This document shows positions 40,065 to 61,316 of a DNA stretch of 64,000 nucleotides, in pieces; positions within the stretch are counted from its first letter, which is position 1; every line of letters begins with the position of its first letter. The stretch covers positions 1-64,000 of the forward strand of contig JAJTXQ010000020.1 of NCBI GenBank assembly GCA_021462855.1, written 5' to 3'. Made by a program: the position numbers and the translations under genes. Below the pieces are notes generated by a model. It was not told the origin of the DNA. It saw only the letters and a list, made by a program, of their open reading frames with translations, and did not search any database. Origin of the DNA: Dehalococcoidia bacterium (GTDB taxonomy: Bacteria; Chloroflexota; Dehalococcoidia; DSTF01; JACRBR01).

Positions 40065-40161
40065 GGGCACGAGCATAGCACAGGCTAAACGCGGAAATCG
40101 CGCGGCCGGCGGACGAGCCGGTTGGCACCATCCCCGGATGAACGGCGTCGGGTAGACTCCG

Positions 40162-41331: not shown

Positions 41332-44111
41332 CCGATCTTGCTCACGTCGACGCGCGTCGCGCGGTCGACCTGGATCGGCGTCCACATGAACGGCCAGTAA
41401 AACAGGTGGCCGTAGCCGCCCGCGAAGCCGAGCCACTTCACCATCGCGCCTTCGAGGTTGCTCGGGCCGCTCCAGTCGCGGAACTGGATGTGGTCCCACC
41501 CGTTGTAACAGATGACCTGTCCCGGCCGGACGGACGGTGACAGCTTCACCTGCACCGTGAATTGCCCGACGTCATTGTGGACGCGCACCTCTTCGTCGTC
41601 GGCGATGCCGCGGCGCGCGGCGTCGGCCGTGTTCATCACGATGTGCGGGTGCCCGCGGTGCGTCTGCAGCGAGCGCCGGTTCGTGATGTTGTTGGCGTGG
41701 ATGCTCCAGCGGTTGTGGCCGCCGGTCAGCGTGAACGGATAGTCGCCGCCCATCTTCGGCGGCGCCTTGTGCGTGGGGAAGTGCTCGCGCGCCTCGATGA
41801 ACCAGTCGTGATCGATGTAGAACTGCGCGCGGCGTGTGAGCGTCGGGTAGGGCAGCTTCTGTTCGAGGTGGTGGCGGAAGGGCGCCATCGTCGAGTCCGG
41901 TTCGATCGGCGTCTGGTAGTTCTGTGAGTAGGGGATGATCCCCCAGCCGGTGAACCGCTCGATGCCCTTTTTTCGCATCGTCTCGATCGTGGTGCCGGCC
42001 GGCAGCGTGCCGGTCATGGTGCTGCCCTCGATGCCTTCGGCGGTCATCTGCTCTTCGTCGACCATTGCGCCGCCGGCGGTGAACACGTCCTCGAGCGTGT
42101 CGAGGTTGAACGTGCGCCCGGCGGCGTCCTGGTACTCCGTGACGCCGCGCTCGCGCCCGCGCTCGCCGAGCTTGCGCGAGAGCAGGCGGAACACCTGCCA
42201 TTCCGGCAGCGCCTCGCCCGCCGGCTCGACTGCCTTGTCCAGCATGGTGAAGAACAGCGTGTGCGAGAGCCCCATGGCGCTCGGCCGCTCGTACTGCTGC
42301 GCCGCCGGCAATACGTAGTCCGAAAACAGCGCGGTGGTGCTCATGCGCACATCGACGCTGACGATCGTGTTGAGCTTCGGCCACAGGTGCTGCCGGAACA
42401 TCGTCTGGCCGCCGCGGCCGCGCCGCAGCAGGTTGTCGCCGACGGCGATCATGACGCGCGGCGGCTTGTCCTCTCCCGGCACGGCGACGCCGTCCCACCA
42501 GCCGCGCTGCATCGCCTCGTTGAAGTAGTCGTCGAACTCGCGCTTCATGCTCGGGTCGTGCCAGTCGCGCCGGTTCCACACGTCGCGGAAGCCTACGTGG
42601 TAGTACCACCACCAGAGCGGCGGCACGTAGTGGCCCTGCGTCACCGCCATCTGCCGCATGATCTCGATGGACGCGATCTCGTCGGTGCGCGACGGATCCT
42701 GCGCCTTGAACAGGTCAATCATCGCGCGGTAGCCCGCAAGGATGTTCGCGAGCTCTTGCTTGCCTCCGGTGCGGCGCGCCTCGTCGAACAGGCCCGCGGT
42801 CGAAGGACCGACGCTCCAGTACGCCGGCCCTGTCCCTTTGCGGCCCCAGTTGCCGGTGACGGCCAGCAACAGGTACATGGCGCGGCCCATGAGGTCGCCG
42901 TGGTAATACTTGCCGGTGCCGAGGCCCTCGTACACATGGGTGCGCTTCGCCGCGACCTTGCGCGCGAGCATGCGGATGACGTCCGGGTGCACGCCGCATG
43001 CCTGCGACGCCTGCTCGGGCGCGTAGTCCCGCAGGTGCCCCCGCAGCCGCGCGAAGGCCGGCGCAACCCGCACCTTCGAGCCGTCGGCCAGCGTGACGTG
43101 GTGCTCGCCCTCCAGCGCGGGCGAGACGTCGCCGAGGTCGAGCGTGCCGCGCGGCGCTTCGGCGATCGCCCGTGCGCGTTCGTCCCAGACGTAGAACTGG
43201 TCATCGCGGCCGTCGGGTGCGAGATCGCATGCGCGGAGGAAGCGCTCGTTGTCGAGCCGGACGAGCAGTGGCAGGTCCGTCTGCTCGCGCAGGAATGGCA
43301 CGTCGGCGAGGCCCTCGTCGATGATCACGCGGCACATCGCCAGGCACAGCGCGGCGTCGCTGCCGACGTTCAGTGGCACGTGGTAGTCCGCGTGCATCGC
43401 CGAGGGGCTGGTGTCCGGCGCGATGAGCACGATCTCGGCGCCCTTGTAGCGCGCCTCGAGCAGGAAGTGGAAGAACGGGATGCGCGTGTACGCCGGGTTG
43501 CAGTGCCAGATGATGATCAGCCCGGAGTGGGCGTAGTCATCCTCGCTCGGGACCGTGAGCTTGCCGTATGTCAGGTACATCCCCGGGCTGAAGTCGGCGA
43601 CGTCGGTGTCGAAGTCGGCGACCGGAAATCCCGTCAGCGACGCGAACCGGCGCTGGCTCATCACGCCCCAGGCGCAGGCGTTGGCGCCGTTTGGCGAGAA
43701 CACGGATTCCGGCCCGACCTCCTGGATCGCGTCGATGATGCTGTCGGCGATCTCGGTGAGCGCCTGGTCCCACGTGATGCGCTCCCATGCGCCGGAGCCG
43801 CGCTCGCCGACCCGCTTCATCGGGTGCAGCAGGCGCTCGGGCGCGTGGAGCAGCTCATCCCAGCACGCGCCCTTCTGGCAGCCCATGGGGTTGAAGTCCG
43901 GCACGCCCTCCTCGACCGGCGGGAAGATGCCTGCCGCTTCCTGGAACGCGATCTTGCCGTCCTTCATATAGACGACGTACGGGCACGAGCCGACGGCCGG
44001 ATAGCAGTCCACGGCGTGGCTGCCGCGCACGGTGCTGTCCCAGGTCCACTGGCCGCGGTACGAGTCCTCGGTCGGGTGGCGGCGCGGCGTCGCTCCGTTG
44101 CCGCGCGTCAT
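41328..44111 (-). CDS. Type II DMSO-reductase-family molybdopterin oxidoreductase, catalytic subunit (paralogue 3)
   Basis: A 927-residue Mo-bis-MGD catalytic subunit. Residues 32-83 hold a variant FS0 cluster motif: His32, Cys36, Cys43 and Cys78 (HAVDCYPAVGSC, then NPMGCQKGAC), with C-x6-C instead of the C-x3-C of NarG and EbdA. The block with FDTDVADFSPG aligns with the YxDLP region, placing the Asp of VAD as the probable Mo ligand. MGD-binding blocks (GLGTGKYYHGDLMGRAMYLL, TGNWGRKGTGP) and the C-terminal domain (TGGHNRWSIHANN, VICYNGWDHIQFR) are complete. No Tat signal. It is the fourth gene of the operon and overlaps the flavoprotein gene by 4 nt. Substrate unknown. Confidence 0.88.
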   Translation of the reverse strand: MTRGNGATPRRHPTEDSYRGQWTWDSTVRGSHAVDCYPAVGSCPYVVYMKDGKIAFQEAAGIFPPVEEGVPDFNPMGCQKGACWDELLHAPERLLHPMKRVGERGSGAWERITWDQALTEIADSIIDAIQEVGPESVFSPNGANACAWGVMSQRRFASLTGFPVADFDTDVADFSPGMYLTYGKLTVPSEDDYAHSGLIIIWHCNPAYTRIPFFHFLLEARYKGAEIVLIAPDTSPSAMHADYHVPLNVGSDAALCLAMCRVIIDEGLADVPFLREQTDLPLLVRLDNERFLRACDLAPDGRDDQFYVWDERARAIAEAPRGTLDLGDVSPALEGEHHVTLADGSKVRVAPAFARLRGHLRDYAPEQASQACGVHPDVIRMLARKVAAKRTHVYEGLGTGKYYHGDLMGRAMYLLLAVTGNWGRKGTGPAYWSVGPSTAGLFDEARRTGGKQELANILAGYRAMIDLFKAQDPSRTDEIASIEIMRQMAVTQGHYVPPLWWWYYHVGFRDVWNRRDWHDPSMKREFDDYFNEAMQRGWWDGVAVPGEDKPPRVMIAVGDNLLRRGRGGQTMFRQHLWPKLNTIVSVDVRMSTTALFSDYVLPAAQQYERPSAMGLSHTLFFTMLDKAVEPAGEALPEWQVFRLLSRKLGERGRERGVTEYQDAAGRTFNLDTLEDVFTAGGAMVDEEQMTAEGIEGSTMTGTLPAGTTIETMRKKGIERFTGWGIIPYSQNYQTPIEPDSTMAPFRHHLEQKLPYPTLTRRAQFYIDHDWFIEAREHFPTHKAPPKMGGDYPFTLTGGHNRWSIHANNITNRRSLQTHRGHPHIVMNTADAARRGIADDEEVRVHNDVGQFTVQVKLSPSVRPGQVICYNGWDHIQFRDWSGPSNLEGAMVKWLGFAGGYGHLFYWPFMWTPIQVDRATRVDVSKIG

Positions 44112-45589
44112 GCCGGCGCGAGCTGCCGTGCGGCTCGGTCTTCGAGGACCATCCGCGCGACCTTCATGCCGGAGTCGGTCGCCTGGTGCGTGCCCATGCC
44201 ACCGCTGCCCGCATCGCCACCAACGAGGTACAGCCCTTCGATCGGCGAGCGGGGCGAAGGCTTGAGCGCGCCGCACTGCCCGGCGATCTGCCCGATGCCG
44301 ACGCACTCGCCGCCCTGCCCGGGCAACACGTGGTCGCGCGACAGCGATGACACGTCGGCCGGCCCCTCGCGGTCCATGGAATCGAGCGCCGCCCAAGCGT
44401 CCGGGAAGAGACGCGCCATCATCTCGTCCATCCGCTGCCAGAGCGCCGCGATCTCCTTCGCTTCGGGGTCGGGCGAGCAGATCGTGCCGGCGATGATGCA
44501 CTGTTTGCCGGGGGGCGCCATGTTCGTGTCGAAGTTCGATGGCACGGTCATGAACATGATCACTTCGTCGGGGATCTGGCCGGCGCGGGCGCGCTCGAAC
44601 CGCTCGACGTTCCACCACGTGTCGTCGGCGTAGACCATGTACATGCAGTGCTGCATCGCGCGCTGGTTGAGGAAGTAGCGCACGCCGGTGAACCCCCATC
44701 CTGGCACGAGCGACCGCACGTACGCCGCGTATGACGGGTCGAAGCGTTCCTCGCCGACCAGCTTCAGCACCGTCGGCTGAATGCCCGCGTTGCTGATGAC
44801 GATCGGAGCGGTGAACACGCCGTCGGCCGTGGCGACGCCGGTCGCCCGGCCGCCTTCGACGATGATCCGCTCGACGCGCTGCCGCGTGCGCAGCGTCCCG
44901 CCGCCGGCGACGAACGCGTCGGTGATCGCCTCGAACAGCGAGCCGAAGCCGCCGGTGTAGTAGCCGCCGCCACCCGCCGCCGCGATCTGCTTGAGGATGC
45001 GGATCTGCTCCGACGCCGCGACCAGGTCGATCGGCTCGGCGAGCGACGCGTTGGCGTGCATCGCCAGGTAGCTGTAGAGGGGGTACGGCACTTCGCGCGT
45101 CTGCAGCCAGTCGTGCAGTGTCACGTTGTCGAGCGTGGCGAGTGTCTCCTCCGGCATCAGCACCATCTCGGCGAGGACGCGCGCCGCCGGCTCGCGCTCG
45201 CTCTCATCCAGCTCCCAGAGCTCGAAGAACGGCGCCGGGTCCATGCCCGTCGACTGGCCGGTGATCTTCGTCTTGTATGCGCCGGAACGCCCACGGTAGA
45301 CCATTGCGGCCGCCTCGAGCGGGATGGGGTGGAAGCGCGCTTCGATGCCGAGCTCGGCGAACAGCGGCGCGAACGCCGGCCCGCGCATCGGCACCTGGAG
45401 CTTCGGCCCGAGCTCGTACCGGAAGCCCTTGCTCTCGACGGTGATTGCCTTGCCGCCGGTGCGCGAGTTCTTTTCGAGCAGCAGCGTGCGCACGCCGCTC
45501 TTCGCCAGCAGCGCGCCGCAGGCGACGCCGCCCGGCCCGCCGCCGATGATGATCGCGTCGTACGCGCGGCCATCCGGGTTCGTGCTCAT
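44108..45589 (-). CDS. FAD-dependent oxidoreductase, phytoene-desaturase-like
   Basis: A 493-residue flavoprotein. IIIGGGPGGVACGALLAKSG at residue 14 is the FAD-binding Rossmann motif, RTLLLEKNSRTGGKAITVE follows, and the C-terminal FAD block is GLYLVGGDAGSGGMGTHQATD. The central part (GGFGSLFEAITDAFVAGGG) matches the CrtI/phytoene dehydrogenase group, which uses isoprenoid or carotenoid-like substrates. AGGAG before ATG 45589; it overlaps the molybdoenzymes on both sides by 4 nt. Placed between two catalytic molybdo-subunits, it may take electrons from the same pathway or process its lipid product. Confidence 0.85.
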   Translation of the reverse strand: MSTNPDGRAYDAIIIGGGPGGVACGALLAKSGVRTLLLEKNSRTGGKAITVESKGFRYELGPKLQVPMRGPAFAPLFAELGIEARFHPIPLEAAAMVYRGRSGAYKTKITGQSTGMDPAPFFELWELDESEREPAARVLAEMVLMPEETLATLDNVTLHDWLQTREVPYPLYSYLAMHANASLAEPIDLVAASEQIRILKQIAAAGGGGYYTGGFGSLFEAITDAFVAGGGTLRTRQRVERIIVEGGRATGVATADGVFTAPIVISNAGIQPTVLKLVGEERFDPSYAAYVRSLVPGWGFTGVRYFLNQRAMQHCMYMVYADDTWWNVERFERARAGQIPDEVIMFMTVPSNFDTNMAPPGKQCIIAGTICSPDPEAKEIAALWQRMDEMMARLFPDAWAALDSMDREGPADVSSLSRDHVLPGQGGECVGIGQIAGQCGALKPSPRSPIEGLYLVGGDAGSGGMGTHQATDSGMKVARMVLEDRAARQLAPA

Positions 45590-48423
45590 GACCTGCTCCT
45601 CTCGCCGCGTGCCTGCGGCCCGTCGGACGTGGCCTTGCTCACTTCGACGCGCGTCGCGCGGTCGACGTGGGTCGGCTGCCACATGAACGGCCAGTAGCGC
45701 AGGTGGCCGTACCCGCCGGCGAAGTGCAGCCACTTCACCATGGCGCCCTCGATGTTGCTCGGGCCGTCCCAGTTACGGAACTGGTAGGGATCCCATCCGG
45801 CGTAGCAGATCACCTGCCCCGGCCGGACGGACGGCGACGTCTTCACGCGCACCAGGATTTCGCCCATGTCATTGTGCAGGCGCACCTCTTCGTCGTCGGC
45901 GACGCCGCGCGCCGCCGCGTCGGCGACGCTCATCACGAGATGCGGCGCGCCGCGGTGCGTCTGCAGCATGCGCTTGTTGACGATGTTCGTGCCGTGCACG
46001 CTCCAGCGGTTGTGCCCGCTCGTGAGCATCAACGGATAATCGCCGCCCATCTTCGGCGGGTCCTTGTGAACGGGCAGCTCCTCGCCTGCTTCGATGAACC
46101 ACTCGTGGTCGATGTAGAACTGGGAGCGGCGCGTCAGCGTCGGGTAGGGCACCTTCTTCTCCACGTGGTTGCGCAGCGGCGACACCGTTTCATCGGGCTC
46201 GACCGGGCTCTGGTAGCTCTGCGCGTTGGGGAACAGTCCCCAGTCCGTGAACCGCACGATGCCCGTCGACTCGCGCATCGACTCGTACGTGGTGTCTTCG
46301 GGCACGGTGCCCATGAGCGCCGTCGCGGCGACGCCCTCTTCGGTCATCTGCTGCTCGTCGACCATGGTGCCGCCGCCGGTGAATGCATCTTCGAGCGTGT
46401 CCAGGCGGAACGGGCGGCCCGACGCCGTGGCGTACTCGACGACGCCGCGCGCCTTGCCGCGCTCGCCGAGCTTGCGCGCGAGCAGCCGGAAGATCTGCCA
46501 CTCGGGCAGCGTCTCGCCCGCGGGTTCGACGGCCTTTTCGAGCAGCGAAAAGAACATCGTCGCGGCGAAGCCGTGCGCGTGCGGGCGCTCGTACTGCTGC
46601 GCCGCCGGCAGCACGTAGTCGGCGTACATCCCCGTTGTGTTCATGCGCACGTCGATGCTGACGATGGTCTTCATCTGCGGCCACAGGTTGCGGATGAACA
46701 TCGTCTTGCCGCCGCGCGTGCGGCGCAGCAGGTTGCCGCCGACCTCGAGCATCACGCGCGGCGGGCGGTCGGCGGGCGGCACGGCGACGCCGGCCCACCA
46801 GCCCTTGTCCAGCGCCTCGTTGAACAGCTCGTCGAATTCGCGCGGCATGCTCTCGTCGTGCCACGTGCGCTTGTTCCAGATCTCGCGGTAGCCGACGTGG
46901 TGGTACCACCACCACACGGGTGGCACGTACACGCCCGTCATCGCGCTCATCGTCTGCATCAGCTCGACGGACGCGATCTCGTCGGTCTTCGTCGGGTCCT
47001 GCGCCTTCATGCCGTCGAGCGTGACGCGGAACATGGTCTGCAGATTGCGCGCCTCGTCGAGGCCGCCCTTCGAACGCGGCTCGTAGAGGTGCGTGCCAGT
47101 CGATGGCCCGGTGTTCCAGTAGTCCGGCCCCGCGCCCTTCTTCCCCCAGTTGCCGGTGAGCGCGAGCAGCAGGTACATCGACCTGCCCATGAGGTCGCCG
47201 TGATAGAACTTTCCGGTGCCGAGCCCCTCGTGCACGCGCGTCTTCTTCGTCGCGAATTTGCGCGCGAGCTCGCGGATGACATCGGGGTGCACGCCGCACA
47301 TCGCCGACGCGGCCTCCGGCGCATACGCCTGGAGGCGGCGGCGCATGAGCTCGAACGCAGGCGTCACGCGCACCGTCGCGCCGTCGGCGAGGCGCACATC
47401 AAACGCGCCGTCGAGCGCCGCGTCCACCGGGCCGAGGTCGAGCGTACCACGCGGGGCCTCGGCGATCGCCTTCGCGCGGAGGTCGTAGACGTAGAACTGA
47501 TCGTCGCGTCCGCCCTCGGCGACGTCGCAGGCGCGCAAAAACTTGCGGTTGTCCTCGCGGACGAGCAGCGCGAGGTCCGTCTGCTCGCGCACGAACTCCT
47601 CGTCCCACAGCCCGCCATCGAGGATGACCTTGCACATCGAGAGGCACAGCGCGGCATCGCTGCCGACCTTCACCGGCACGTGCAGGTCCGCGTGCATCGC
47701 CGAAGGGCTGTAGTCCGGGGCGATGATCACGAGCTCAGCGCCCTTGTATCGCGCCTCCATCAGGTAATGGAAGATCGGGATGCGCGTGTACGACGGGTTT
47801 GAGTGCCAGATGACGATCATCTCCGAGTGCGCGTAGTCGTCGGCGCTCGGCGTGATGTACTTGCCCCAGGTGAGACTCATCGCCGGCACGCAGTCGCCGA
47901 TGTCGGCATCGAAGTCGCCGAGCGGAAAGCCGGTGAGGTTGCTGAACCGACGCTGCGCCGTCATGCCCCAGGCGAGCGCGTTCGCGCCCGACGGCGAGAA
48001 CACGGCCTCCGGCCCGATCTCCTCGATCGCGTCGATGATGCTGTCGGCGATCTCGGTCAGCGCCTGGTCCCACGAGACGCGCTGCCATTTGCCCTCGCCA
48101 CGCTCCCCGGCGCGCTTGAGCGGATAGAGCACGCGCTCCTTCGCCGTGAGCATCTCGTCCCAGCAGGCGCCCTTCTGGCACCCCATCGGGTTGAGGTCGG
48201 GCACGCCCTCCTCGACGACCGGGAAGACGCCGGACTGCTCCTGGAACTGGATCTGGCCGTCCTTCAGGTACACGCGGTAGGGGCACGAGCCGACGGTCGG
48301 GTAGCAGTCCACTGCGTGACTGCTGTGCACGACCTTGTCCCACGTCCAGCGCTTTCGGTACGCGTCCTCCGTGGCGGCGGCGCCGTGCTTCGCACCGTTG
48401 GCGGGAGGCGTGGGTTTCGTCAT
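45586..48423 (-). CDS. Type II DMSO-reductase-family molybdopterin oxidoreductase, catalytic subunit (paralogue 2)
   Basis: A 945-residue paralogue of the gene at 41328, closely similar along its length. FS0 ligands are His36, Cys40, Cys47 and the Cys of NPMGCQKGACWDEM. The Mo-ligand region reads FDADIGDCVPAMSLTWGKY. MGD and C-terminal blocks match paralogue 3 (HEGLGTGKFYHGDLMGRSM, TSGHNRWSVHGTN). GAGGAG is 8-10 nt before ATG 48423. No signal peptide is visible, so the protein is probably cytoplasmic. It follows paralogue 1 after 31 nt. Known relatives oxidise or hydroxylate hydrocarbons (ethylbenzene, steroids) or reduce nitrate or chlorate; the Asp-ligand class is supported but the substrate is not. 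Confidence 0.88.
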   Translation of the reverse strand: MTKPTPPANGAKHGAAATEDAYRKRWTWDKVVHSSHAVDCYPTVGSCPYRVYLKDGQIQFQEQSGVFPVVEEGVPDLNPMGCQKGACWDEMLTAKERVLYPLKRAGERGEGKWQRVSWDQALTEIADSIIDAIEEIGPEAVFSPSGANALAWGMTAQRRFSNLTGFPLGDFDADIGDCVPAMSLTWGKYITPSADDYAHSEMIVIWHSNPSYTRIPIFHYLMEARYKGAELVIIAPDYSPSAMHADLHVPVKVGSDAALCLSMCKVILDGGLWDEEFVREQTDLALLVREDNRKFLRACDVAEGGRDDQFYVYDLRAKAIAEAPRGTLDLGPVDAALDGAFDVRLADGATVRVTPAFELMRRRLQAYAPEAASAMCGVHPDVIRELARKFATKKTRVHEGLGTGKFYHGDLMGRSMYLLLALTGNWGKKGAGPDYWNTGPSTGTHLYEPRSKGGLDEARNLQTMFRVTLDGMKAQDPTKTDEIASVELMQTMSAMTGVYVPPVWWWYHHVGYREIWNKRTWHDESMPREFDELFNEALDKGWWAGVAVPPADRPPRVMLEVGGNLLRRTRGGKTMFIRNLWPQMKTIVSIDVRMNTTGMYADYVLPAAQQYERPHAHGFAATMFFSLLEKAVEPAGETLPEWQIFRLLARKLGERGKARGVVEYATASGRPFRLDTLEDAFTGGGTMVDEQQMTEEGVAATALMGTVPEDTTYESMRESTGIVRFTDWGLFPNAQSYQSPVEPDETVSPLRNHVEKKVPYPTLTRRSQFYIDHEWFIEAGEELPVHKDPPKMGGDYPLMLTSGHNRWSVHGTNIVNKRMLQTHRGAPHLVMSVADAAARGVADDEEVRLHNDMGEILVRVKTSPSVRPGQVICYAGWDPYQFRNWDGPSNIEGAMVKWLHFAGGYGHLRYWPFMWQPTHVDRATRVEVSKATSDGPQARGERSRS

Positions 48424-48454: not shown

Positions 48455-51280
48455 CTATGCGCGCACCGGCGCGACATCGACGCGCGTCGCGCGGTCGGTG
48501 GGGCAGGGCTGCCACTCCATCATCCAGTACTTGAAATGCCCGTAGCCGCCGGCGAGGTGCAGCCACTTGATCATCCCGGGCTCGATGTTCGCGGGGTCGC
48601 TCCACGCCGGGAACTGGTAGCCGTCCCAGCCGTTGTAGATGATCACCTGGCCCGGCTGGACGGACTCCGTGACCTTCGCTTCGAGCACCGTCTCGCCGAG
48701 GTCGTTGTGCACGCGCACCTGCTCACCGTCGGCGATGTCGCGCGCGATCGCGTCGCGTGTGTTGATGAACACATGCGGTGCGCCTCGGTGCGTTTCGAGC
48801 ATCACGCGGTTGGCGATGTTCAGCGAGTGGATGCTCGACCGGCTGTGCCCGCTCGTGAGGGCGAGCGGGTAGCGCCCGCCCATCTCCGGCGGCTCCTTGT
48901 GGCACGGCAACTCCTCGCCGGCCTCGATGAACCACGGGTGGTCGATGTAGAACTGCGCGCGCCGCGTCAGCGTCGCGTACGGCTCCTTGCGTTCGATGTG
49001 GTGGCGGAACGGCGCGAACGTCTCATTCGGGCTGATGTCCGACGCCTGGGCGACCGCGCGCACCGAGATGCCGACGCCGCTGAACCGCTCGTATCCCTTT
49101 TCACGCAGCGTGTTCATCGAAGAGCCTTCGGGCAGCGCGCCGGTAATCGCGGTGTCGCGCACGATCTCGTCGGCGAGCTTCTCCTCGGTATCGTGCGCGC
49201 CCGCGGCGATCAGCGCCTGGTGCATGCCGGCGACGGCGTGCGTGCCGCCCTTCGCATCGCCGTACTCGGCGAGGCCGCGGGCCAGCGCGCGCTCCTCGAA
49301 CCGCTGCAAGAGCGCCGTGTAGATATCCCATTCGTTCCGCGCCTCGCCCGGCGGCTCGACCAGGCGGTCCGAGAACGTGACGTTCATGGTGTGCACGCTC
49401 GGGATCCCAAACGAGATCTTCTCGTATTGCTGCGCGACGGGGAGGACGATGTCGGCGTGCATCGCCGTCGTGCTCATGCGCGGGTCCATCTCGACGATCA
49501 TCTTGAGTTTCGGCCAGAGGTGCCGCAGGAGCTGGTTGCGGCCGCCGCGCGTGCGGCGCAGCATGTTGCCGCCGCATTCGAGCATCACACGCGGCTCGTG
49601 GTTCGCGGCGGGAAGCGCGACGCCGGCCCACCAGCCCTTGGCCGCCGCCTCGTCCCAGTACTCGCGGAAGGGTCGCGGTTTGCTCGGGTCGTGCCACTCG
49701 TCGCGCGACCATACCTCGTCGTAGCCCGCGTGGTGGTACCAGAGGAACACCGGCGGCACCATGTTCATCGGCGTGCCGGGGATCAGCGGCAGCACCTTGT
49801 TCATCTCGATATTCGCGAGTGCGTCGGTGAGCGTCGGGTCGCCGCCCTTGATGCCCTGGAGCATCATGTTCATCATCGCCAGCACTTCGCGCGATTCTTC
49901 GGGGCCGCCGCGGCGCTTGGCGCCGGCGACGCCCATGCCATCGAGCAGGCCGCCCATCCACGCGCGGATGCCGGTGCCCTTCTTGCCCCAGTTTCCGGTG
50001 AGCGCGAGCAGCAGGAGCTCCGACCGCTCGATCAGGTCGCCGTGATAGAACTTGCTCGCGTTGCTCAGGCTGCAGATGATGTTCGTCTTCTTCGACGCGA
50101 CGCTCCGCGCAAGGTCGCGGATCACCGCCGGTGCGACGCCGCACAGCTCCGCGGCGCGTTCCGGCGCGTAGTCGCGCAGCCGCTCGCGCATCAGCGCGAA
50201 CGCCGGCGTGACGCGGACCCGCGCGCCGCCGGCGAGCGTCGCCGCGTGCGAACCTTCGAGCGCGGGCGACACGTCGCCGTAGTCGAGCGTGCCGCGCGGC
50301 GCCTCGGCGATCTCGCCGGTGCGGGAGTCGAGCACGTAGAACTGGTCGTCGCGGCCGCCCTCGGCGACATCGCGCTGGCGCAGGAACTCGCGCGTGTCCT
50401 CGCGCACGAGCAGCGGCAGGTCCGTCTGCTCGATGATGAACCGCTCGTCGTAGATCCGTTCATCGACGACGACTCGCGCCATGCCGAGCGCGAGCGCCGC
50501 GTCGCTGCCCGGACGCACCGGAACGAACTGGTCGGCATGGATCGCCGAAGGGCTGAAGTCGGGCGCGATCGTCACGACCTCGGCGCCGCGATAGCGCGCC
50601 TCGTTGATGTAGTGCTGGTGGGGGATGCGCGTGTGCGCCGGGTTGGCGAACCAGATCAGCACGAGCTCGGAGTGGAACCAGTCATCGACCGAGCTCACGG
50701 GGTCGAACATGCCGAACGTGATGTACTGCCCGGCGGCGAAGTCCGTGATCTCGCCGTTGACGTCCATCGCCAGGCTGCCGACGAGCGACGCCATCTTGCC
50801 GCGCGCGAGCAGCGCGAGCGTGCTTGCGTTGGCGCCGCCGACGTGCAGGATCGACTCGGGCCCGACCTCCTGGATGCCGTCGACCATCGCGTCGGCGATC
50901 TCCGTGAGCGCCTCGTCCCAGGAGATGCGCGTCCACCTCCCCTCGCCGCGCTCACCGGCGCGCCGGAGCGGGTAGAGGACGCGCTCGCCGGCGTCGAGCA
51001 TCGAGCTCCAGGCGACGCCCTTCTGGCAGCCCATCGGGTTCATATCCGGCACGCCGCGCTCGACGACGGGCAGTGTGCCGGGCTGCTCTTCGCGCCAGAC
51101 CCGTCCATCGCGCAGGTAGACGCGCATGGGGCAGTTGCCCGGGTAGCAGTCGACGCAGTGACTGCCCCATCCCCAGGAGGTGTACGCGGTCTGCGCGCGG
51201 TAGCGGTCCTCCGCCGGGTGCGATGGTGGGTCCGTTGTTGCCGCCGCGCCGTTCGCCGCCGCGGCTCGACGTTTCGCCAT
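48455..51280 (-). CDS. Type II DMSO-reductase-family molybdopterin oxidoreductase, catalytic subunit (paralogue 1)
   Basis: A 941-residue paralogue, the first gene of the operon and the most divergent. FS0 ligands are His41, Cys45, Cys50 (HCVDCYPGNC, a C-x4-C spacing, two residues shorter than in the other two) and the Cys of NPMGCQKGVAW. The Mo-ligand region is VNGEITDFAAGQYITFGM. The MGD blocks (SNASKFYHGDLIERSELLLL, TGNWGKKGTGI) and the C-terminal domain (SGHSRSSIHSLNI) are complete. The N-terminus is Ala-rich with no Tat signal. It is divergent from the SCP2 fusion gene across 185 bp that contain the AACGATCGTT palindrome. Confidence 0.87.
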   Translation of the reverse strand: MAKRRAAAANGAAATTDPPSHPAEDRYRAQTAYTSWGWGSHCVDCYPGNCPMRVYLRDGRVWREEQPGTLPVVERGVPDMNPMGCQKGVAWSSMLDAGERVLYPLRRAGERGEGRWTRISWDEALTEIADAMVDGIQEVGPESILHVGGANASTLALLARGKMASLVGSLAMDVNGEITDFAAGQYITFGMFDPVSSVDDWFHSELVLIWFANPAHTRIPHQHYINEARYRGAEVVTIAPDFSPSAIHADQFVPVRPGSDAALALGMARVVVDERIYDERFIIEQTDLPLLVREDTREFLRQRDVAEGGRDDQFYVLDSRTGEIAEAPRGTLDYGDVSPALEGSHAATLAGGARVRVTPAFALMRERLRDYAPERAAELCGVAPAVIRDLARSVASKKTNIICSLSNASKFYHGDLIERSELLLLALTGNWGKKGTGIRAWMGGLLDGMGVAGAKRRGGPEESREVLAMMNMMLQGIKGGDPTLTDALANIEMNKVLPLIPGTPMNMVPPVFLWYHHAGYDEVWSRDEWHDPSKPRPFREYWDEAAAKGWWAGVALPAANHEPRVMLECGGNMLRRTRGGRNQLLRHLWPKLKMIVEMDPRMSTTAMHADIVLPVAQQYEKISFGIPSVHTMNVTFSDRLVEPPGEARNEWDIYTALLQRFEERALARGLAEYGDAKGGTHAVAGMHQALIAAGAHDTEEKLADEIVRDTAITGALPEGSSMNTLREKGYERFSGVGISVRAVAQASDISPNETFAPFRHHIERKEPYATLTRRAQFYIDHPWFIEAGEELPCHKEPPEMGGRYPLALTSGHSRSSIHSLNIANRVMLETHRGAPHVFINTRDAIARDIADGEQVRVHNDLGETVLEAKVTESVQPGQVIIYNGWDGYQFPAWSDPANIEPGMIKWLHLAGGYGHFKYWMMEWQPCPTDRATRVDVAPVRA

Positions 51281-51352
51281 GTAGCTCCGCTCGCAGTGCT
51301 TGGCCGGGGTCAGCAGCCAGCCGCTCGCGTGGTCAATCTCTCAGGAAATTCG

Positions 51353-51362
51353 AACGATCGTT
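51353..51362. promoter_or_regulatory. AACGATCGTT palindrome, candidate TetR-type operator
   Basis: A perfect 10-bp palindrome lies 73 nt before the molybdoenzyme start and 104 nt before the fusion gene start. A second one, GCCATATGGC, is at 51366-51375, and an inverted repeat CGGTGC/GCACCG is at 51397-51414. Such sites in a divergent region suggest shared repression; the TetR regulator at 61780 is a candidate, not a proven, partner. Confidence 0.45.
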
Positions 51363-51465
51363 AGTGCCATATGGCTTCAGGCAACACACTGTCAGGCGGT
51401 GCCTCACAGCACCGTCCGCGAGCGCCGCGCTATCATCGCGCCGCCGAAAACGAAGGAGCCGACAC

Positions 51466-53766
51466 ATGAGGTCAGAAGACCGCGATCTCACGACGCTGCA
51501 TGCCGCACTTGCCGCGTGGATGCGCGACAAGGCCGGCCCGGCGGCCGAACTCTCCGCGCTCAAGCGTCCGGGCGCCGGGCTTTCGAACGAGACGTGGATG
51601 TGCGAGCTGTCCTGGCGCGACAACGGCTCGACGCGGTCCTCCGGGCTCGTCGCGCGGCTCGAGCCCAGCAACCTGCGCGTGTTTCCCGACTACGACCTCG
51701 TCGGACAGGCGCGCGTGATGCAGGCGCTCGCGGACAGCGGTGTGCCGGTGCCGAACGTCCGCTGGGTCGAGTCCGACGCAGGCGTGCTCGGCTCGCCGTT
51801 CTACGTCATGGACCGCATTGAGGGCGTCGTGCCGTCGGAGGTGCCGCCGTACCACAGCTTCGGGCTGCTGTTCGACGCGTCGCCCGAGCGCCGCGCGGCG
51901 ATGTGGTGGAGCGGCATCGAGACGCTTGCGAAGATCCACCAGCTCGACTGGCGCGCGCGGGGGTTGTCGTTCCTCGGCGCACCGGGTGCCGGCACCGATG
52001 CGCTCGACCGGCAGCTTGACTACTACGAGCGCTTCCTGGCATGGGCGGCGGAGGGCGAGCCGCAGCCGATCCTCGAGGCGGCGCTTCGCTGGCTGCGCGA
52101 GCATCGCTTTGCGCCCAAGCGCATCTCGCTCTGCTGGGGCGACGCGCGCCTGCCTAACCTCATCTACCGCGACGACGCGGTCGCCGGCGTGCTCGACTGG
52201 GAGATGGCGTTTCTCTGCGACCCGGTGGCCGACCTGGCGTGGTGGCTGTTCATGGACTGGCAGGGCTCCGAGGGCTACGGCATCCCGCGGCTCGATGGCT
52301 TCCCGTCGTGGGAGGAGACGGTGCGACGCTACGAGGAGCTCACCGGCGCGCCCGTCGAGAACTTGCGGTGGCACGAGGTCTTCGCGGCGCTTCGGTTTGG
52401 TGTCGTCATGGTGCGCGTCGCGCGGCACATGACCGCGAGCGGCATCCCGACGCCGACCGACGACTTCCAGCACGACAACCCGTGTACGCAACGCCTCGCG
52501 CAGCTGCTCGATCTGCCCGCTCCCGGCACGCCCCAACGTAAACTCACGAACATCAACGAATCCACCGTGCGCGTGCAGTTCCACCTCACCGGCGGTGGCG
52601 GGCACGACTGGCACCTGGTCGCCGATCGCGGCATCGGGACGCGCTACGACGGCATCGTTGCCGATCCCGACGTGACGCTCACGGCCACGGCGGCCGACTG
52701 GGACGCGATCCAGCGCGGCGATCTCGACCGTACGCAGGCGTACCTCGGCGGCAAACTGGTGATCCAGGGCGACATGACGCTGCTCATGCAGCTCGACGAC
52801 ATGATCACGCGCCTCAGCAACGCCGGCGCCGGCGTCGCAGCGGCGCAGAGCGCGCAGTCCGCGCATGCCAGCGCCACGCACATGGTGACCGCCGAGGACG
52901 ACGCGCGGCACGTGCCCGGTCCCGGCGCGCTGCCGCTGTGGAACGAGAGCTTCTGGTTCGCGATGTACGACCCGCACGCCGATATCGGCCTGACCGTGCG
53001 CGCAGGCATGCACCCGATGAAGGGCGAGGGGAACATCTACCTCATCATCACGCACAACGGCGGCGTGGTGCACAGCCTGCTGGACCATCGCGCGCCACTG
53101 CCGCGCGAGCAGGAGCGCCGGCTCGAGATGCTCGGCTACAGCATCGACTGGGAGGCGCCGCTTGAACGCTTCCGGCTGCGCTATGCGCACGGCGCAACGG
53201 CCTTCGACCTGACCTGGGAAGGGACGAGTCCCGTGTACGTGTACCCGTTCCCGCCGGCGAGCACGGCCGAGCAGGTGCCGCGGCACATCGAGCACGCGGG
53301 GCGGGGGCGCGGAACGATCACGATCGGCGGCGCCGCGCACGAGATCGACTGCCTGGGGCATCGCGACCACAGCTGGGGCGGCGAACGCGACTGGGCGAAG
53401 ATGCCGCGCTGGGACTACCTGAGCGGCGAGTTCGGTGAGGACTTCTGGTTCAACGCCGTGGCCGTCTCGCTCGATGGCTTCCCGCAGGACATCCACCTCG
53501 GGGGCGTGTGGAACGGCGCCGAGTTGCGCGCGCTGGCGTCGGTGGAGATGCGTGTCGAGGCCGCGGACGGCGGCACGCGACAGTCGGGCTGCGACATGCG
53601 CATCACCGACGTGAAGGGCGACGCGTACCACATCGTCGCAGAGGAGGTGGTGGCGATCGCCCCCGCGCAGTTCGGCCGCACGTGGGTGAAGGACGGCTTC
53701 ACGCGATTCCGCTGCGGCGACCGCACGGGCTACGGCATCTTCGAGCACGCATACATCGAGAAGTAA
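51466..53766 (+). CDS. Fusion: aminoglycoside-phosphotransferase-like kinase, SCP2 sterol-carrier domain and DUF7064-like domain
   Basis: A 766-residue protein with three parts. Residues 30-330 are an APH/choline-kinase-like fold: GAGLSNETWMCEL as the nucleotide loop region and CWGDARLPN (about 222) as the Brenner motif, then GVLDWEMAFLCDPVADLAWW. Residues 365-450 form an SCP2 sterol-carrier domain, a cavity-bearing lipid-binding fold (VQFHLTGGGGHDWHLVADRG to YLGGKLVIQGDMTLLMQLDD). Residues 490-766 resemble lipocalin-like DUF7064/CrtC-type proteins with WNESFWFAMYDP and GHRDHSWGGERDW. GAAGGAG precedes ATG 51466. It could phosphorylate a bound sterol-like alcohol. It is divergent from the molybdoenzyme operon. 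Confidence 0.82.
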   Translation: MRSEDRDLTTLHAALAAWMRDKAGPAAELSALKRPGAGLSNETWMCELSWRDNGSTRSSGLVARLEPSNLRVFPDYDLVGQARVMQALADSGVPVPNVRWVESDAGVLGSPFYVMDRIEGVVPSEVPPYHSFGLLFDASPERRAAMWWSGIETLAKIHQLDWRARGLSFLGAPGAGTDALDRQLDYYERFLAWAAEGEPQPILEAALRWLREHRFAPKRISLCWGDARLPNLIYRDDAVAGVLDWEMAFLCDPVADLAWWLFMDWQGSEGYGIPRLDGFPSWEETVRRYEELTGAPVENLRWHEVFAALRFGVVMVRVARHMTASGIPTPTDDFQHDNPCTQRLAQLLDLPAPGTPQRKLTNINESTVRVQFHLTGGGGHDWHLVADRGIGTRYDGIVADPDVTLTATAADWDAIQRGDLDRTQAYLGGKLVIQGDMTLLMQLDDMITRLSNAGAGVAAAQSAQSAHASATHMVTAEDDARHVPGPGALPLWNESFWFAMYDPHADIGLTVRAGMHPMKGEGNIYLIITHNGGVVHSLLDHRAPLPREQERRLEMLGYSIDWEAPLERFRLRYAHGATAFDLTWEGTSPVYVYPFPPASTAEQVPRHIEHAGRGRGTITIGGAAHEIDCLGHRDHSWGGERDWAKMPRWDYLSGEFGEDFWFNAVAVSLDGFPQDIHLGGVWNGAELRALASVEMRVEAADGGTRQSGCDMRITDVKGDAYHIVAEEVVAIAPAQFGRTWVKDGFTRFRCGDRTGYGIFEHAYIEK

Positions 53767-53769
53767 CGG

Positions 53770-54909
53770 CTACCGCGCGCGGTCGGCGCCGGCCGTCAGG
53801 TCGGCGACGCGCGCCACCGTCGCGAGGTACTCCTCGACCATGTCGTAGATCACCTGGCGCGCCGGTTTCACCGACCGCATCCGGCCGACGATCTGGCCGA
53901 CGGGCGAACCAACCAGCTCACGGGCGCCGGGCCGGTCATCGGCGTAGCGGTGGATGCGGCTCACCGCCTCGGACGTGAGCATGAACTGGAGCGGCATCGG
54001 CAGCGTGCCGGGCGACTCCTCGCCGTCCCACGCCTCCGTCCACGCGGTGCGCAGCTGCCGCGCCGGCTTGCCCGTGAGCGCGCGCGAGCGCACCGTGTCG
54101 CGCGACCCCGCCGCAAGCAGCTTTTCGATGATCACCTGCCGCGTGTCGCTTTCTGCGACGGTGAGCCAGATCGAGCCCGTCCACACGCCGTCCGCGCCGA
54201 GCGCCATCGCCGCCGCCATCTGCCGGCCGCTGCCGATGCCGCCGGCCGCGAGCACGGGGACCGGGCTGACGGCATCGACGACATCCGGCACGAGGACCAT
54301 CGTGGCGATCTCGCCTGTGTGGCCGCCGGCCTCGGTGCCGGACGCGACGATCATGTCGACGCCGGCCGCAACCTGCTTCTGCGCCTGCTCCGCCGTGCCG
54401 ACGAGCGCCGCGACCTTCATGCCGTGGGCGTGCGCCTTCTCGACGACATCCCTCGGCGGCGCGCCGAGCGCGTTGACGAGCAGCCTTGCCGGGTGGTCGA
54501 GGGCGATGTCGACCTGATTGCGCGCGCCGCCGTAGGTCCACCCGAGAAGCCCCGCGGGCGTCTCCGCGCCCTCCGGCAGCGGCGGCACGTCGAACCGCGC
54601 GAGCGTGTCTTCGACGTACTTGCGGTGCGTTTCCGGGATCATCTTTCGGAACGCGCCCTCGTCGAGCGTCGCGCCCTCGGAGGGCGCGACCGATGACTGC
54701 GGCATGACGATATCGACGCCGTACGGCTTGCCATCGACGTGCTCGTCGATCCAGCGCAGCTCGATCTCGAGCTGCTCCGGCGAGAATGCGAGCGCGCCGA
54801 GCACGCCCATGCCGCCGGCGCGGCTCACGGCGGCCACCACGTCGCGACAGTGGCTGAACGCGAAAATCGGGAACTCGATGCCAAACTCTTCGCAAACGCG
54901 CGTGCGCAT
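53770..54909 (-). CDS. Nitronate monooxygenase / enoyl reductase-like (NMO family)
   Basis: A 379-residue FMN-dependent TIM-barrel protein. Typical blocks are VVAAVSRAGGMGVLGALAF near the start, ASGTEAGGHTGEIATMVLVP near 195 (with the catalytic His) and VPVLAAGGIGSGRQMAAAMA. The C-terminus has an extra helical segment ending in a polar tail. In steroid and aliphatic degradation clusters, proteins of this family often oxidise or reduce enoyl or keto CoA esters rather than nitronates. It is the last gene of the TetR-led operon, 27 nt after the acyl-CoA dehydrogenase, and its stop lies 3 nt from the convergent fusion gene stop. Confidence 0.82.
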   Translation of the reverse strand: MRTRVCEEFGIEFPIFAFSHCRDVVAAVSRAGGMGVLGALAFSPEQLEIELRWIDEHVDGKPYGVDIVMPQSSVAPSEGATLDEGAFRKMIPETHRKYVEDTLARFDVPPLPEGAETPAGLLGWTYGGARNQVDIALDHPARLLVNALGAPPRDVVEKAHAHGMKVAALVGTAEQAQKQVAAGVDMIVASGTEAGGHTGEIATMVLVPDVVDAVSPVPVLAAGGIGSGRQMAAAMALGADGVWTGSIWLTVAESDTRQVIIEKLLAAGSRDTVRSRALTGKPARQLRTAWTEAWDGEESPGTLPMPLQFMLTSEAVSRIHRYADDRPGARELVGSPVGQIVGRMRSVKPARQVIYDMVEEYLATVARVADLTAGADRAR

Positions 54910-54936: not shown

Positions 54937-56133
54937 TCAGTACGACCGCGGCAGGCCGAGGTCCCACTCCGACACGTAGTTGAGGATCATCTCGCGGCTC
55001 ACCGGCGCCGTCTTGAACAAGCGCGCGCCGATCCACAGGTTGATGAGCCCGTACTCCTCCGAAAACCCGTTGCCGCCGTGCGTCTCGATCGCCGCATCGA
55101 CCGCCTTCGTCACGAGATCCGCGGCGAGGAACTTCGCCATGTTCGATTGCGTGCCGACCTGCAGGGGATCCATGCCTGCGTCGAACGACGCTGCGGCGCG
55201 GTACATCATCAGCTTCACGGCTTCGTGCCAGATCTTCACTTCGGCGAGCGGGTGCGCGATCGACTGGTAGGCGCCGATCGGCGTGTCTTTGAACACGCGC
55301 CGCTCGCGCGCGTACACGACCGCCTTGTCGAGGCAGTGCTGCGTCATCCCCGAGCAGATCGCCGCCGCGAGGATGCGCTCGGGGTTCAGCGAGTTGAACA
55401 TCGCCAGTGCGCCGCCGCCCTCGGCGCCGACGAGGTTGTCGGCCGGTACCTGGACATCGTCAAAGAACAGCTGCCACTGGCCGGCGCCATCGCTGGTGAG
55501 CGTGGGCAGCAGCGTCTTCGTCAGTCCGGGCGACTTCGTGTCAACGAGCATCAGCGAGAGGCCCTGTGACTTCGGCTTGCCCTCGCGCTGCAGTTCCTCG
55601 ACCGTCGTCGTGCGGCAGACGAGCAGCATGTAGTCGGCCTGCTCGACGCCGGTAATGAACACCTTCTGGCCGTTCAGCCGGTACACGTCGCCATCGCGTC
55701 GCGCCACGGTCTCGATGCGAAACGTGTTGGTGCCGGCGTTCGGCTCGGTGACGGCAAAGCACAGCTTCATCTTGCCGCTGGTGATCTGCGGCAGCACACG
55801 CGCCTTCAGTTCTTCGGACCCGTTCTTGACGATGCACGCCGCGTCCATCGACGTCACGAGCATCAGTCCGGGGAAGAACCCCTGCGTGACGAGCTCTTCA
55901 AACGCGACGGTGAGCGTGACCAGTCCGGAGTCGTTGCCGCCGTACTGCTCCGGCACCAGGCAGCCCAGCAGCCCGATGCGTGCGAAGTCATCCCACAGCT
56001 CCTGCGGGAATTGCCGCTCGAGCTGCATGCGACGGAACTCATCTCGCCGCGGGACGTACTTCTGGAGCATCTGGCGGACGGACGTGCGGACGAGTTGCTG
56101 CTCGTCGCTTAGCGCGAATTCCGTCGTGGTCAT
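54937..56133 (-). CDS. Acyl-CoA dehydrogenase
   Basis: A 398-residue FAD-dependent dehydrogenase that introduces the 2,3-double bond into acyl-CoA esters. Signature blocks: LCFAVTEPNAGTNTFRIET near residue 120, YRLNGQKVFITGVEQADYML, ERILAAAICSGMTQHCLDKA, and ETHGGNGFSEEYGLIN close to the end. I chose ATG 56133 (MTTTEFALSDEQ); further upstream codons overlap the enoyl-CoA hydratase gene. It follows that gene by 13 nt in the operon. The substrate class, side chain or fatty acid, is not fixed by sequence. Confidence 0.9.
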   Translation of the reverse strand: MTTTEFALSDEQQLVRTSVRQMLQKYVPRRDEFRRMQLERQFPQELWDDFARIGLLGCLVPEQYGGNDSGLVTLTVAFEELVTQGFFPGLMLVTSMDAACIVKNGSEELKARVLPQITSGKMKLCFAVTEPNAGTNTFRIETVARRDGDVYRLNGQKVFITGVEQADYMLLVCRTTTVEELQREGKPKSQGLSLMLVDTKSPGLTKTLLPTLTSDGAGQWQLFFDDVQVPADNLVGAEGGGALAMFNSLNPERILAAAICSGMTQHCLDKAVVYARERRVFKDTPIGAYQSIAHPLAEVKIWHEAVKLMMYRAAASFDAGMDPLQVGTQSNMAKFLAADLVTKAVDAAIETHGGNGFSEEYGLINLWIGARLFKTAPVSREMILNYVSEWDLGLPRSY

Positions 56134-56146
56134 CCGGCGGTTCCTT

Positions 56147-56953
56147 TCAGCGCCCCTTGAACTGCGGGACGCGCTTCTCTTTGAACGCGCGCGGTCCTTC
56201 GCGGGCGTCCTCCGTCGCGTACACCTCCATGCCAATGCGGAACTCGACGGCGAGCGCTTCTTCCTCCGTCAGCCCGTCGGTGTCGAGTACAGACTGCTTG
56301 ATCTTGCGCACCGCCACCGGGCCGTTCGCCGCGACCTTCGCCGCGATCTCGCGCGCGGTCTGGAGCGCCGAGCCCTTCGCGACGATCCGCCCGATCAGCC
56401 CGAAGCGGAGCGCGTCGGTCGCGGGGAAGGTGTCGCCCGTGAGCAACAGCTCCATCGCCATGGTGAACGGGATCTGGCGGCGCAGGCGGACCGTGGAGCC
56501 GCCCTGCGGGAAGAGGCCCCACTTGACCTCGGTGACGCCGAAGATCGAGCCCTCGCCCGCGACGCGAATGTCCGTGGTCTGGAGGATCTCGGTGCCGCCG
56601 GCGACGCAGTAGCCTTCGATCGCGGCGATCAGCGGTTTGGTGAGACGATAGCCGCGCAGCAATCCTTTGAAGATCACATCGGGGTGCGCACGGCAGCGGG
56701 CCTCGAACTCATCCTCGGGCGGAAGCTTCGCGAGCGAGCGCGACACGAGTTTGTCGAGGTCCGCGCCGGCGCAGAAGTCACCGCCCGCGCCGGTGAGGAC
56801 GACGGCACGCACCTCATCGTCGGCGTTCGCCGCCTCCCACGCATCGGCGAGCCGGCAAAGCATCTCCATGTTCAGCGCGTTCTTCACGTCCGGGCGGTTC
56901 ATGGTGAGCGTCAGGACGGGTCCGTCGCGCTCGACGATCAATGCCGGGTTCAT
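56147..56953 (-). CDS. Enoyl-CoA hydratase/isomerase (crotonase family)
   Basis: A 268-residue crotonase. The oxyanion-hole blocks are GAGGDFCAGADLDKL near residue 54 and AIEGYCVAGGTEIL near 110; the position of the second catalytic Glu reads KWGLFPQGGSTVRL, where the Glu of classical hydratases is replaced, so isomerase, hydrolase or another crotonase reaction is possible. ATG 56953 has GAAAGG 8 nt upstream; longer frames lie in the neighbouring gene. Part of the nine-gene operon. Confidence 0.88.
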   Translation of the reverse strand: MNPALIVERDGPVLTLTMNRPDVKNALNMEMLCRLADAWEAANADDEVRAVVLTGAGGDFCAGADLDKLVSRSLAKLPPEDEFEARCRAHPDVIFKGLLRGYRLTKPLIAAIEGYCVAGGTEILQTTDIRVAGEGSIFGVTEVKWGLFPQGGSTVRLRRQIPFTMAMELLLTGDTFPATDALRFGLIGRIVAKGSALQTAREIAAKVAANGPVAVRKIKQSVLDTDGLTEEEALAVEFRIGMEVYATEDAREGPRAFKEKRVPQFKGR

Positions 56954-60828: not shown

Positions 60829-61316
60829 TACAGGTGCTCCTTGAATGATTCGAACGGGGCGTCGGGCTCGCCGGTCGGGCGGAAGTAGCGGATGCTGTTC
60901 ATGCTTGGCTGGAGCTCGTCGTTCGGCACCCACACCGCCTCGACGCGCATGCCCATGCGCACGTCCTCCGTCGCGACCTCCTGCAGCAGGTGGAATAGCG
61001 GGATGTCCGCGCCGTCGAGCAACACCGACGCCGAGACGTACGGCGCCTTCACGGCTGATCCGGCGAACGGGATGTTGACGACGCAAAACGTCGTGACGAT
61101 GCCCTTGTCCGACAGCGCCACGTCATCGCGCGTCGGCACGCCGCAGGTCGGGCACGAGCCGCGCGGCGGCACGTACACCTTCGCGCACGACGGGCAGCGC
61201 TGGCCGACGATCTTGCCCTGCGCGAGGCCGCGCAGGAAGCGCGCGGGCGCCGTCCCGACGACGTACGTGTAGTCGAGGCGGATCGGCACCTTGATCCCGT
61301 ACACCTGCTCGCTCAT
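60828..61316 (-). CDS. DUF35 OB-fold protein with zinc ribbon (acyl-CoA-associated), copy A
   Basis: A 162-residue DUF35 protein. The rubredoxin-like zinc ribbon is present (CPSCAKVYVPPRGSCPTC near residue 41) and an OB-fold follows from about 75 to 140 (GIVTTFCVVNIPFAGSAVK). DUF35 proteins are obligate partners of thiolase-fold enzymes, as in Ltp2-ChsH2 and archaeal HMG-CoA synthase. It overlaps the DUF35 gene upstream by 4 nt and the thiolase-fold gene downstream by 1 nt, a strong sign of a complex. Confidence 0.85.
   Translation of the reverse strand: MSEQVYGIKVPIRLDYTYVVGTAPARFLRGLAQGKIVGQRCPSCAKVYVPPRGSCPTCGVPTRDDVALSDKGIVTTFCVVNIPFAGSAVKAPYVSASVLLDGADIPLFHLLQEVATEDVRMGMRVEAVWVPNDELQPSMNSIRYFRPTGEPDAPFESFKEHL

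Follow-up and report, generated by a model that had tools for sequence, protein, structure and literature searches.

How do the catalytic subunits of molybdenum hydroxylases work when no genes for their partner subunits lie beside them? We addressed this question in a stretch of 64,000 nucleotides (hereafter the window) from a Dehalococcoidia bacterium (GenBank assembly GCA_021462855.1, contig JAJTXQ010000020.1, positions 1 to 64,000), in which three paralogous alpha subunits (alpha1, alpha2 and alpha3) share one operon with a CrtI-like flavoprotein (Table 1). A preliminary description of these genes, exact in coordinates and lengths and silent on the minus strand, had proposed a new cytoplasmic group of orphan enzymes with another electron acceptor, perhaps the flavoprotein. 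The gene that is most informative on the function of the locus was absent from that description: it is the divergent neighbour of the operon, and it encodes a kinase-like domain, an SCP2 sterol-carrier domain and a lyase-like domain in one protein. With a probability of roughly 60%, we consider the window to hold an oxygen-independent cluster for side-chain activation of a sterol-like or isoprenoid substrate, following the plan of Sterolibacterium denitrificans, with cytoplasmic hydroxylases that share their beta and gamma subunits.

Each of the three alphas contains the Molybdopterin and Molydop_binding domains and matches the type II alpha subfamily model TIGR03479 from end to end (854-880 bits). 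At the sequence level this homology is strong and full-length, and a chance match is excluded. The hallmarks of type II (Asp-ligated) alphas of the dimethyl sulfoxide reductase kind are all present, namely the Asp ligand, the His/Cys3 motif of the iron-sulfur cluster FS0 and two domains binding molybdopterin guanine dinucleotide (MGD). The Asp aligned with the Mo ligand of ethylbenzene dehydrogenase (EbdA Asp223) and of PcrA (Asp170) was found in 133 of 133 aligned rows having the column, and the three FS0 cysteines are conserved in all aligned rows reaching them. Alignment and domain search therefore agree with the preliminary description on the FS0 motifs, the ligand and the MGD domains. The pairwise identity is 68% between alpha1 and alpha2 and 53% between each of these and alpha3, while alpha3 is 63-66% identical to its orthologues in the loci L030 and L029. 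In one alpha subclade the FS0 His is replaced by Cys (CNQADC), giving an apparent all-Cys FS0 (G000:C11:1910-4696 and G000:C13:206516-209302 in the genome of the window, and L043_3863, L045_3499 and L062_2820).

The nearest solved relative of the alphas is EbdA (PDB 2ivf; 758 bits for alpha3 and 774 bits for alpha2), with 40-41% identity. The EbdABC enzyme has the alpha homology, the Mo ligand and FS0 in common with the window, whose genome also encodes homologues of its beta and gamma subunits. This closeness would favour reading the alphas as hydroxylases of aromatic alkyl chains, of the ethylbenzene or p-cymene type, unrelated to the kinase-lyase gene. However, they score only 765-807 bits against the EbdA equivalog model NF042978, far under its cut-off of 2000, and in the related genome of Chloroflexi bacterium SZUA-185 the kinase and lyase genes sit between the alphas on one strand. 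We thus regard a role confined to aromatic alkyl chains as highly unlikely.

We searched the genome assembly of the window (3.0 Mb, 97.5% complete) for the missing partners. Neither the window nor the rest of its contig yielded a beta, gamma or chaperone gene, so that the alphas are indeed orphans locally. They are not orphans genome-wide, since the search for unlinked beta and gamma genes, which the preliminary description had itself proposed, found four EbdB-like betas and two EbdC-like gammas (apart from one more gamma in a NarG-like locus), together with one type II chaperone scoring above cut-off. The same genome encodes 13 full-length EbdA-like alphas and one that is truncated by a contig end. 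On contig C11, a Tat-less alpha (one lacking a twin-arginine translocation signal) overlaps a gamma by 4 bp, followed by a beta and then by the sole EbdA-like alpha of this genome that bears a Tat signal; on C6, a gap of 2 bp separates the end of a beta from a Tat-less alpha; and on C33, a beta lies 41 bp after a Tat-less alpha. Beta and gamma genes thus adjoin other Tat-less alphas in the same genome, some of them in translational coupling, an arrangement that the preliminary description had itself named as one that would refute its proposal. One beta-linked alpha (G000:C33:186324-189065) has an in-frame TGA near its N-terminus, from an assembly error or a decayed gene.

An excess of alphas over betas was also seen in relatives having the family, as in the SZUA-185 genome (G014), with about 12 alphas and 4 complete betas. 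In S. denitrificans, the imbalance between alphas and beta-gamma subunits led its discoverers to propose that the latter are shared (PMC6016249). Such sharing would explain both the alpha excess and the unlinked beta and gamma genes observed here. Consequently, our model suggests that the window's alphas are served by a beta (FeS) and a gamma (heme b) subunit encoded by unlinked genes and common to several paralogues.

The most direct evidence against a partnerless model comes from SZUA-185, where the genes of the window recur on one contig (G014:C3, locus L030), all on one strand. This cluster begins with an acyl-CoA dehydrogenase, an enoyl-CoA hydratase, an alpha2-like and an alpha1-like gene, a DUF6144-like protein of 165 aa, a kinase-SCP2 protein, a DUF7065/7064 protein and a CrtI-like protein, and ends with an alpha3-like gene, a Zn-dependent alcohol dehydrogenase (ADH), an aldehyde:ferredoxin oxidoreductase (AOR), a gamma and a beta. 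The gamma (EB_dh) scores 165 bits against TIGR03477 and the beta 477 bits against TIGR03478, and both lie within the apparent operon. The FeS (beta) and heme b (gamma) subunits that characterise steroid C25 and C26 dehydrogenases are encoded elsewhere in the genome in our organism and in the same operon in SZUA-185. In the latter, the kinase-SCP2 and lyase-like proteins are encoded by separate genes, sited between alphas. The DUF6144-like protein (~165 aa, L149:4009-4506), located between alpha and kinase, has a homologue in the genome of the window (G000:C11:16679-17185) that lies between MobA-like and MoaA-like genes, which suggests a role in Mo-enzyme maturation.

To place these loci in a wider context, genome contigs were scanned with patterns from the window alphas, yielding 208 relatives and 75 retrieved loci; the sample is biased towards the window's clade, from which the patterns were derived. 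Taxonomically, the sample spans Chloroflexota (including Dehalococcoidia), Acidimicrobiia, Solirubrobacterales, Acidobacteria, Deltaproteobacteria, Alphaproteobacteria and Gammaproteobacteria. A beta or gamma gene on the same strand within 700 bp was found for 42 of the 106 alphas with enough flanking sequence, and 40 of these 42 linked alphas are Tat-less. On the alpha tree, a quick build in which the EbdA and PcrA branches are long, linked and unlinked alphas are intermixed (22 changes among 106 rows), indicating that the unlinked arrangement is a gene-order state recurring within one clade and does not mark off a partnerless group of its own. Alpha1 and alpha2 cluster with two SZUA-185 alphas in a clade of full support, and the third SZUA-185 alpha groups with alpha3. 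Relaxed selection on unlinked alphas was also considered and gave no clear sign of partner loss: of the 172 columns that beta/gamma-linked alphas conserve, and that do not map the beta interface, alpha3 deviates at 2, alpha2 at 11 and alpha1 at 8, compared with 0-10 for linked alphas left out singly. None of the papers covered by a literature search reports S25DH-type enzymes (steroid C25 dehydrogenases) in Dehalococcoidia, and a plasmid search for sequences of the S25DH or S26DH (steroid C26 dehydrogenase) type returned only chlorate reductases, haloarchaeal enzymes and one distant oxidoreductase.

Could the cytoplasmic alphas dispense with beta and gamma and pass their electrons directly to the CrtI-like flavoprotein? 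In the operon, alpha3 is followed after 31 bp by alpha2, which overlaps the CrtI-like gene by 4 bp as this does alpha1; the CrtI-like gene stays beside an alpha in SZUA-185, and the absence of beta and gamma from the window's contig also favours such a transfer. In contrast, beta and gamma genes adjoin Tat-less alphas in this genome and lie at the end of the orthologous SZUA-185 cluster, FS0, which is the electron donor to beta in the alpha's family, is intact, and a CrtI gene is missing from the surroundings of most alphas in this clade. CrtI-type enzymes are isoprenoid dehydrogenases and isomerases and are not known as acceptors of Mo enzymes, which counts further against this role. We found no support for the CrtI-like protein as electron acceptor, and consider direct transfer highly unlikely. 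The protein may instead serve, perhaps, in desaturation or saturation, or in alcohol oxidation, of an intermediate.

The three alphas have no Tat motif, in agreement with the preliminary description. The in-frame sequence upstream of alpha1, alpha2 and alpha3 was searched and lacks the motif as well, ruling out a signal masked by a misassigned start codon. A credible Tat motif was present in only about 5 of the roughly 130 complete alphas surveyed. EbdA, in contrast, has a Tat signal, and its gene adjoins beta and gamma genes. The lack of a signal peptide on the gamma is uninformative, as the EbdC model is equally long. These data support the view that alpha1-3 belong to a large, distinct Tat-less branch of type II enzymes, predicted to be cytoplasmic; the proposal of a new cytoplasmic group thus survives as a branch and falls as a partnerless group. 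Because the alphas lack Tat signals, their complexes are predicted to be cytoplasmic, and the whole cascade could share one compartment. Periplasmic cytochrome c would then be out of reach, and an acceptor other than cytochrome c remains a viable idea, even though the earlier suggestion that the flavoprotein replaces beta and gamma found no support.

What, then, would the hydroxylases act on? The kinase domain of the neighbouring fusion matches the 25-hydroxysteroid kinase (25-HSK; PDB 9fsg) with 154 bits, about 30% identity over 312 aa and a fold Z of 35.5. In the fold ranking (model confidence, pLDDT, 88), only Rv3168 (3ats) of Mycobacterium tuberculosis scored higher, with a Z of 36.9, and all other folds reached 27.4 at most. 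The 25-HSK fold is present with its catalytic motifs, WGDARxxN and LDWEMA. The lyase domain, modelled alone (pLDDT 71), has as its top fold match the 25-phosphosteroid lyase (25-PSL; Foldseek E 8e-15, Z 25 over 276 residues), and a profile built from relatives of this domain matches 25-PSL at E 4e-44. In the product-bound 25-PSL entry, the Asp of SRDRSWG is changed to Asn relative to the native entry, suggesting that this Asp is probably catalytic; its equivalent in the window protein is Asp616 in HRDHSWG, within the conserved motif RDxSWG. Compared with the known enzymes, 25-HSK (9fsg, 9ft5; PMC8449060) is a stand-alone monomer, whereas the window kinase is fused to SCP2 and lyase; 25-PSL (9fzn, 9g2i, 9g4c) has the fold and the probable catalytic Asp in common with the window domain, which is shorter and fused to the kinase, and for which steroid-phosphate activity is predicted at most. 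From sequence and structural models, we propose that the fusion protein works like 25-HSK plus 25-PSL, and do not claim identity with them. Rv3168 and Rv3169 of M. tuberculosis (3ats; NF053593) are homologous to the kinase and lyase parts and have no known connection to a Mo enzyme.

In S. denitrificans, S25DH uses water to hydroxylate the tertiary C25, 25-HSK phosphorylates the product, and removal of the phosphate by 25-PSL leaves a delta-24 alkene, whose allylic C26 is hydroxylated by S26DH (PMC7411048, PMC8449060, PMC11061730). Its enzymes S25DH1-4 and S26DH1-3 (PMC6016249, PMC7411048, PMC11061730) are, like ours, Asp-ligated type II Mo-bisMGD alphas with many paralogues and fewer betas and gammas, and they work with the kinase and the lyase, while the window alphas adjoin a fused homologue of both. 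In contrast to the window alphas, which lack Tat and belong to Chloroflexota, they are Tat-bearing, assigned to the periplasm and betaproteobacterial, and their pathway intermediates have been proposed to move back and forth between periplasm and cytoplasm (PMC7411048). We hypothesize that alpha1-3 are water-dependent Mo-bisMGD hydroxylases and, by analogy, that the alpha1/alpha2 type makes the tertiary alcohol and alpha3 hydroxylates the allylic carbon formed later. Between the two hydroxylations, the fusion would use ATP to phosphorylate the alcohol and then split off the phosphate to yield the alkene, handing the phosphoester straight to elimination, with the substrate held by the SCP2 sterol-carrier domain. 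The product would be oxidised to an acid, by the ADH and AOR in SZUA-185, activated by an acyl-CoA synthetase and channelled into beta-oxidation. Tat-less alphas would remove the need for intermediates to alternate between compartments. The window and SZUA-185 have the two alpha types, the kinase and the lyase in common; ADH and AOR are found in SZUA-185 and the acyl-CoA synthetase in the window.

The same machinery could, however, act on a non-sterol substrate, such as a linear isoprenoid, a hopanoid, a terpene or a branched hydrocarbon, with the kinase-lyase dehydrating another tertiary or secondary alcohol. The 13 diverged alphas of this genome suggest many substrates, the low identity of the lyase to 25-PSL leaves room for a changed one, and EbDH-type enzymes are known to act on alkyl aromatics and putatively on alkanes (PMC7803848). 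The kinase-SCP2 protein is also widespread in Dehalococcoidia (70 of 197 genomes of the class at 1e-15, many of the matches being distant APH proteins), in several cases next to genes for lyase-like proteins and AOR but with no Mo alpha. Such neighbourhoods would suit a module that acts after various first hydroxylases and whose substrate need not be a sterol. The SCP2 domain, the closeness of the kinase to 25-HSK and the set of lipid-transfer thiolases and DUF35 proteins downstream lean instead towards steroids, as does a gene resembling a 3-ketosteroid delta-1-dehydrogenase (FAD-dependent; G000:C13:212114-213733) that lies next to a different pair of alphas in the window's contig. We consider a non-sterol substrate unlikely, if a serious alternative.

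Several observations weigh against the sterol-like cascade that we favour. Alpha1-3 score below the curated TIGR03479 cut-off of 984.75, and therefore represent a related branch only. The likeness to S25DH and S26DH was drawn from published descriptions of those enzymes. The lyase domain is just 18% identical to 25-PSL and scores 67.5 bits against the Rv3169-family model NF053593, below its cut-off of 150 (the alpha-adjoining homologue of Chloroflexota OFTM284, L084, reaches 371.5), and the 25-PSL fold family includes hydratases and pericyclases too. Close kinase-SCP2 relatives often lie near DUF7064-type and AOR genes with no Mo alpha nearby, and are thus not tied to Mo enzymes. Finally, the sharing of beta and gamma is deduced from gene counts, and periplasmic cytochrome c could not serve as acceptor for complexes located in the cytoplasm.

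Table 1 Features of the alpha operon, the fusion gene and their surroundings in the window
Feature	Position	Strand	Details
Alpha/beta hydrolase fused to adenylate/guanylate cyclase domain	38733..40076		Immediately beyond the alpha operon
alpha1, Tat-less EbdA/S25DH-like catalytic subunit	41328..44111	-	927 aa; last gene of operon; SZUA-185 orthologue G014:C3:83180
CrtI-like FAD oxidoreductase	44108..45589	-	493 aa; 4-bp overlap with each neighbour; 58% identical to orthologue in SZUA-185 cluster
alpha2, Tat-less EbdA/S25DH-like catalytic subunit	45586..48423	-	945 aa; SZUA-185 orthologue G014:C3:80217
alpha3, Tat-less EbdA/S25DH-like Mo hydroxylase catalytic subunit (predicted)	48455..51280	-	941 aa; first gene of operon
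Divergent intergenic region between alpha operon and fusion gene	51281..51519	.	239 bp; from gene calls
Kinase-SCP2-lyase fusion	51520..53766	+	748 aa; Pfam: APH kinase, SCP2, DUF7065/DUF7064; 25-HSK-like kinase aa 1-345, SCP2 sterol-carrier ~aa 350-430, 25-PSL-like lyase (DUF7065/DUF7064) aa 448-748
FabK/nitronate-monooxygenase-like flavoprotein	53770..54909	-	570 bits to a gene in the G012 kinase-lyase cluster
Acyl-CoA dehydrogenase	54937..56133	-	
Enoyl-CoA hydratase/isomerase	56147..56953	-	
AMP-forming acyl-CoA synthetase	56979..58601	-	PRK07798 subfamily, above cut-off
Two thiolase-like lipid-transfer proteins and two DUF35/ChsH2-type small proteins	58613..61783	-	PRK08313 and PRK07937, both above cut-off; second DUF35 gene (61313..61783) assigned by position and appearance alone

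Beyond the fusion gene, the thiolase-like and DUF35 genes form a set that resembles, by analogy, those of sterol side-chain beta-oxidation. The PRK07798, lipid-transfer thiolase and DUF35 families include FadD19 and Ltp3/Ltp4 of mycobacterial cholesterol catabolism, which we take as a lead and not as a test. Kinase and lyase genes occur in other settings as well. OFTM284 carries an alpha, then a 282-aa protein of no assigned family and then a lyase-like gene with 157 bits to 25-PSL. In the related Chloroflexota genome G012 (C94:3544-14596, locus L180), in which no EbdA-like alpha was found, kinase and lyase-like genes lie by a cytochrome P450, a Rieske ferredoxin, a FabK-like flavoprotein, a MaoC pair and a thiolase/DUF35 pair, in what appears to be an oxygen-dependent counterpart of the cluster.

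The biochemistry of oxygen-free sterol side-chain oxidation is known from essentially one betaproteobacterium. The kinase-SCP2-lyase fusion beside Chloroflexota Mo hydroxylases suggests that the pathway reaches into widespread uncultured lineages of anoxic sediment and groundwater. A wider claim, which we put forward tentatively and at somewhat less than even odds, is that an entire clade of Tat-less type II hydroxylases, in Chloroflexota and other uncultured phyla, runs the cascade wholly in the cytoplasm, with the fused kinase-carrier-lyase shuttling the substrate between two Mo hydroxylases and an acceptor other than periplasmic cytochrome c. A sterol-type pathway could also explain, in a way open to testing, why 'ethylbenzene dehydrogenase-like' genes have expanded so greatly in the genomes of these sediment and groundwater lineages. 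The fusion also links kinase and lyase as one functional unit, and its homology offers a testable function for the mycobacterial pair Rv3168/Rv3169, which may be an ATP-dependent dehydratase.

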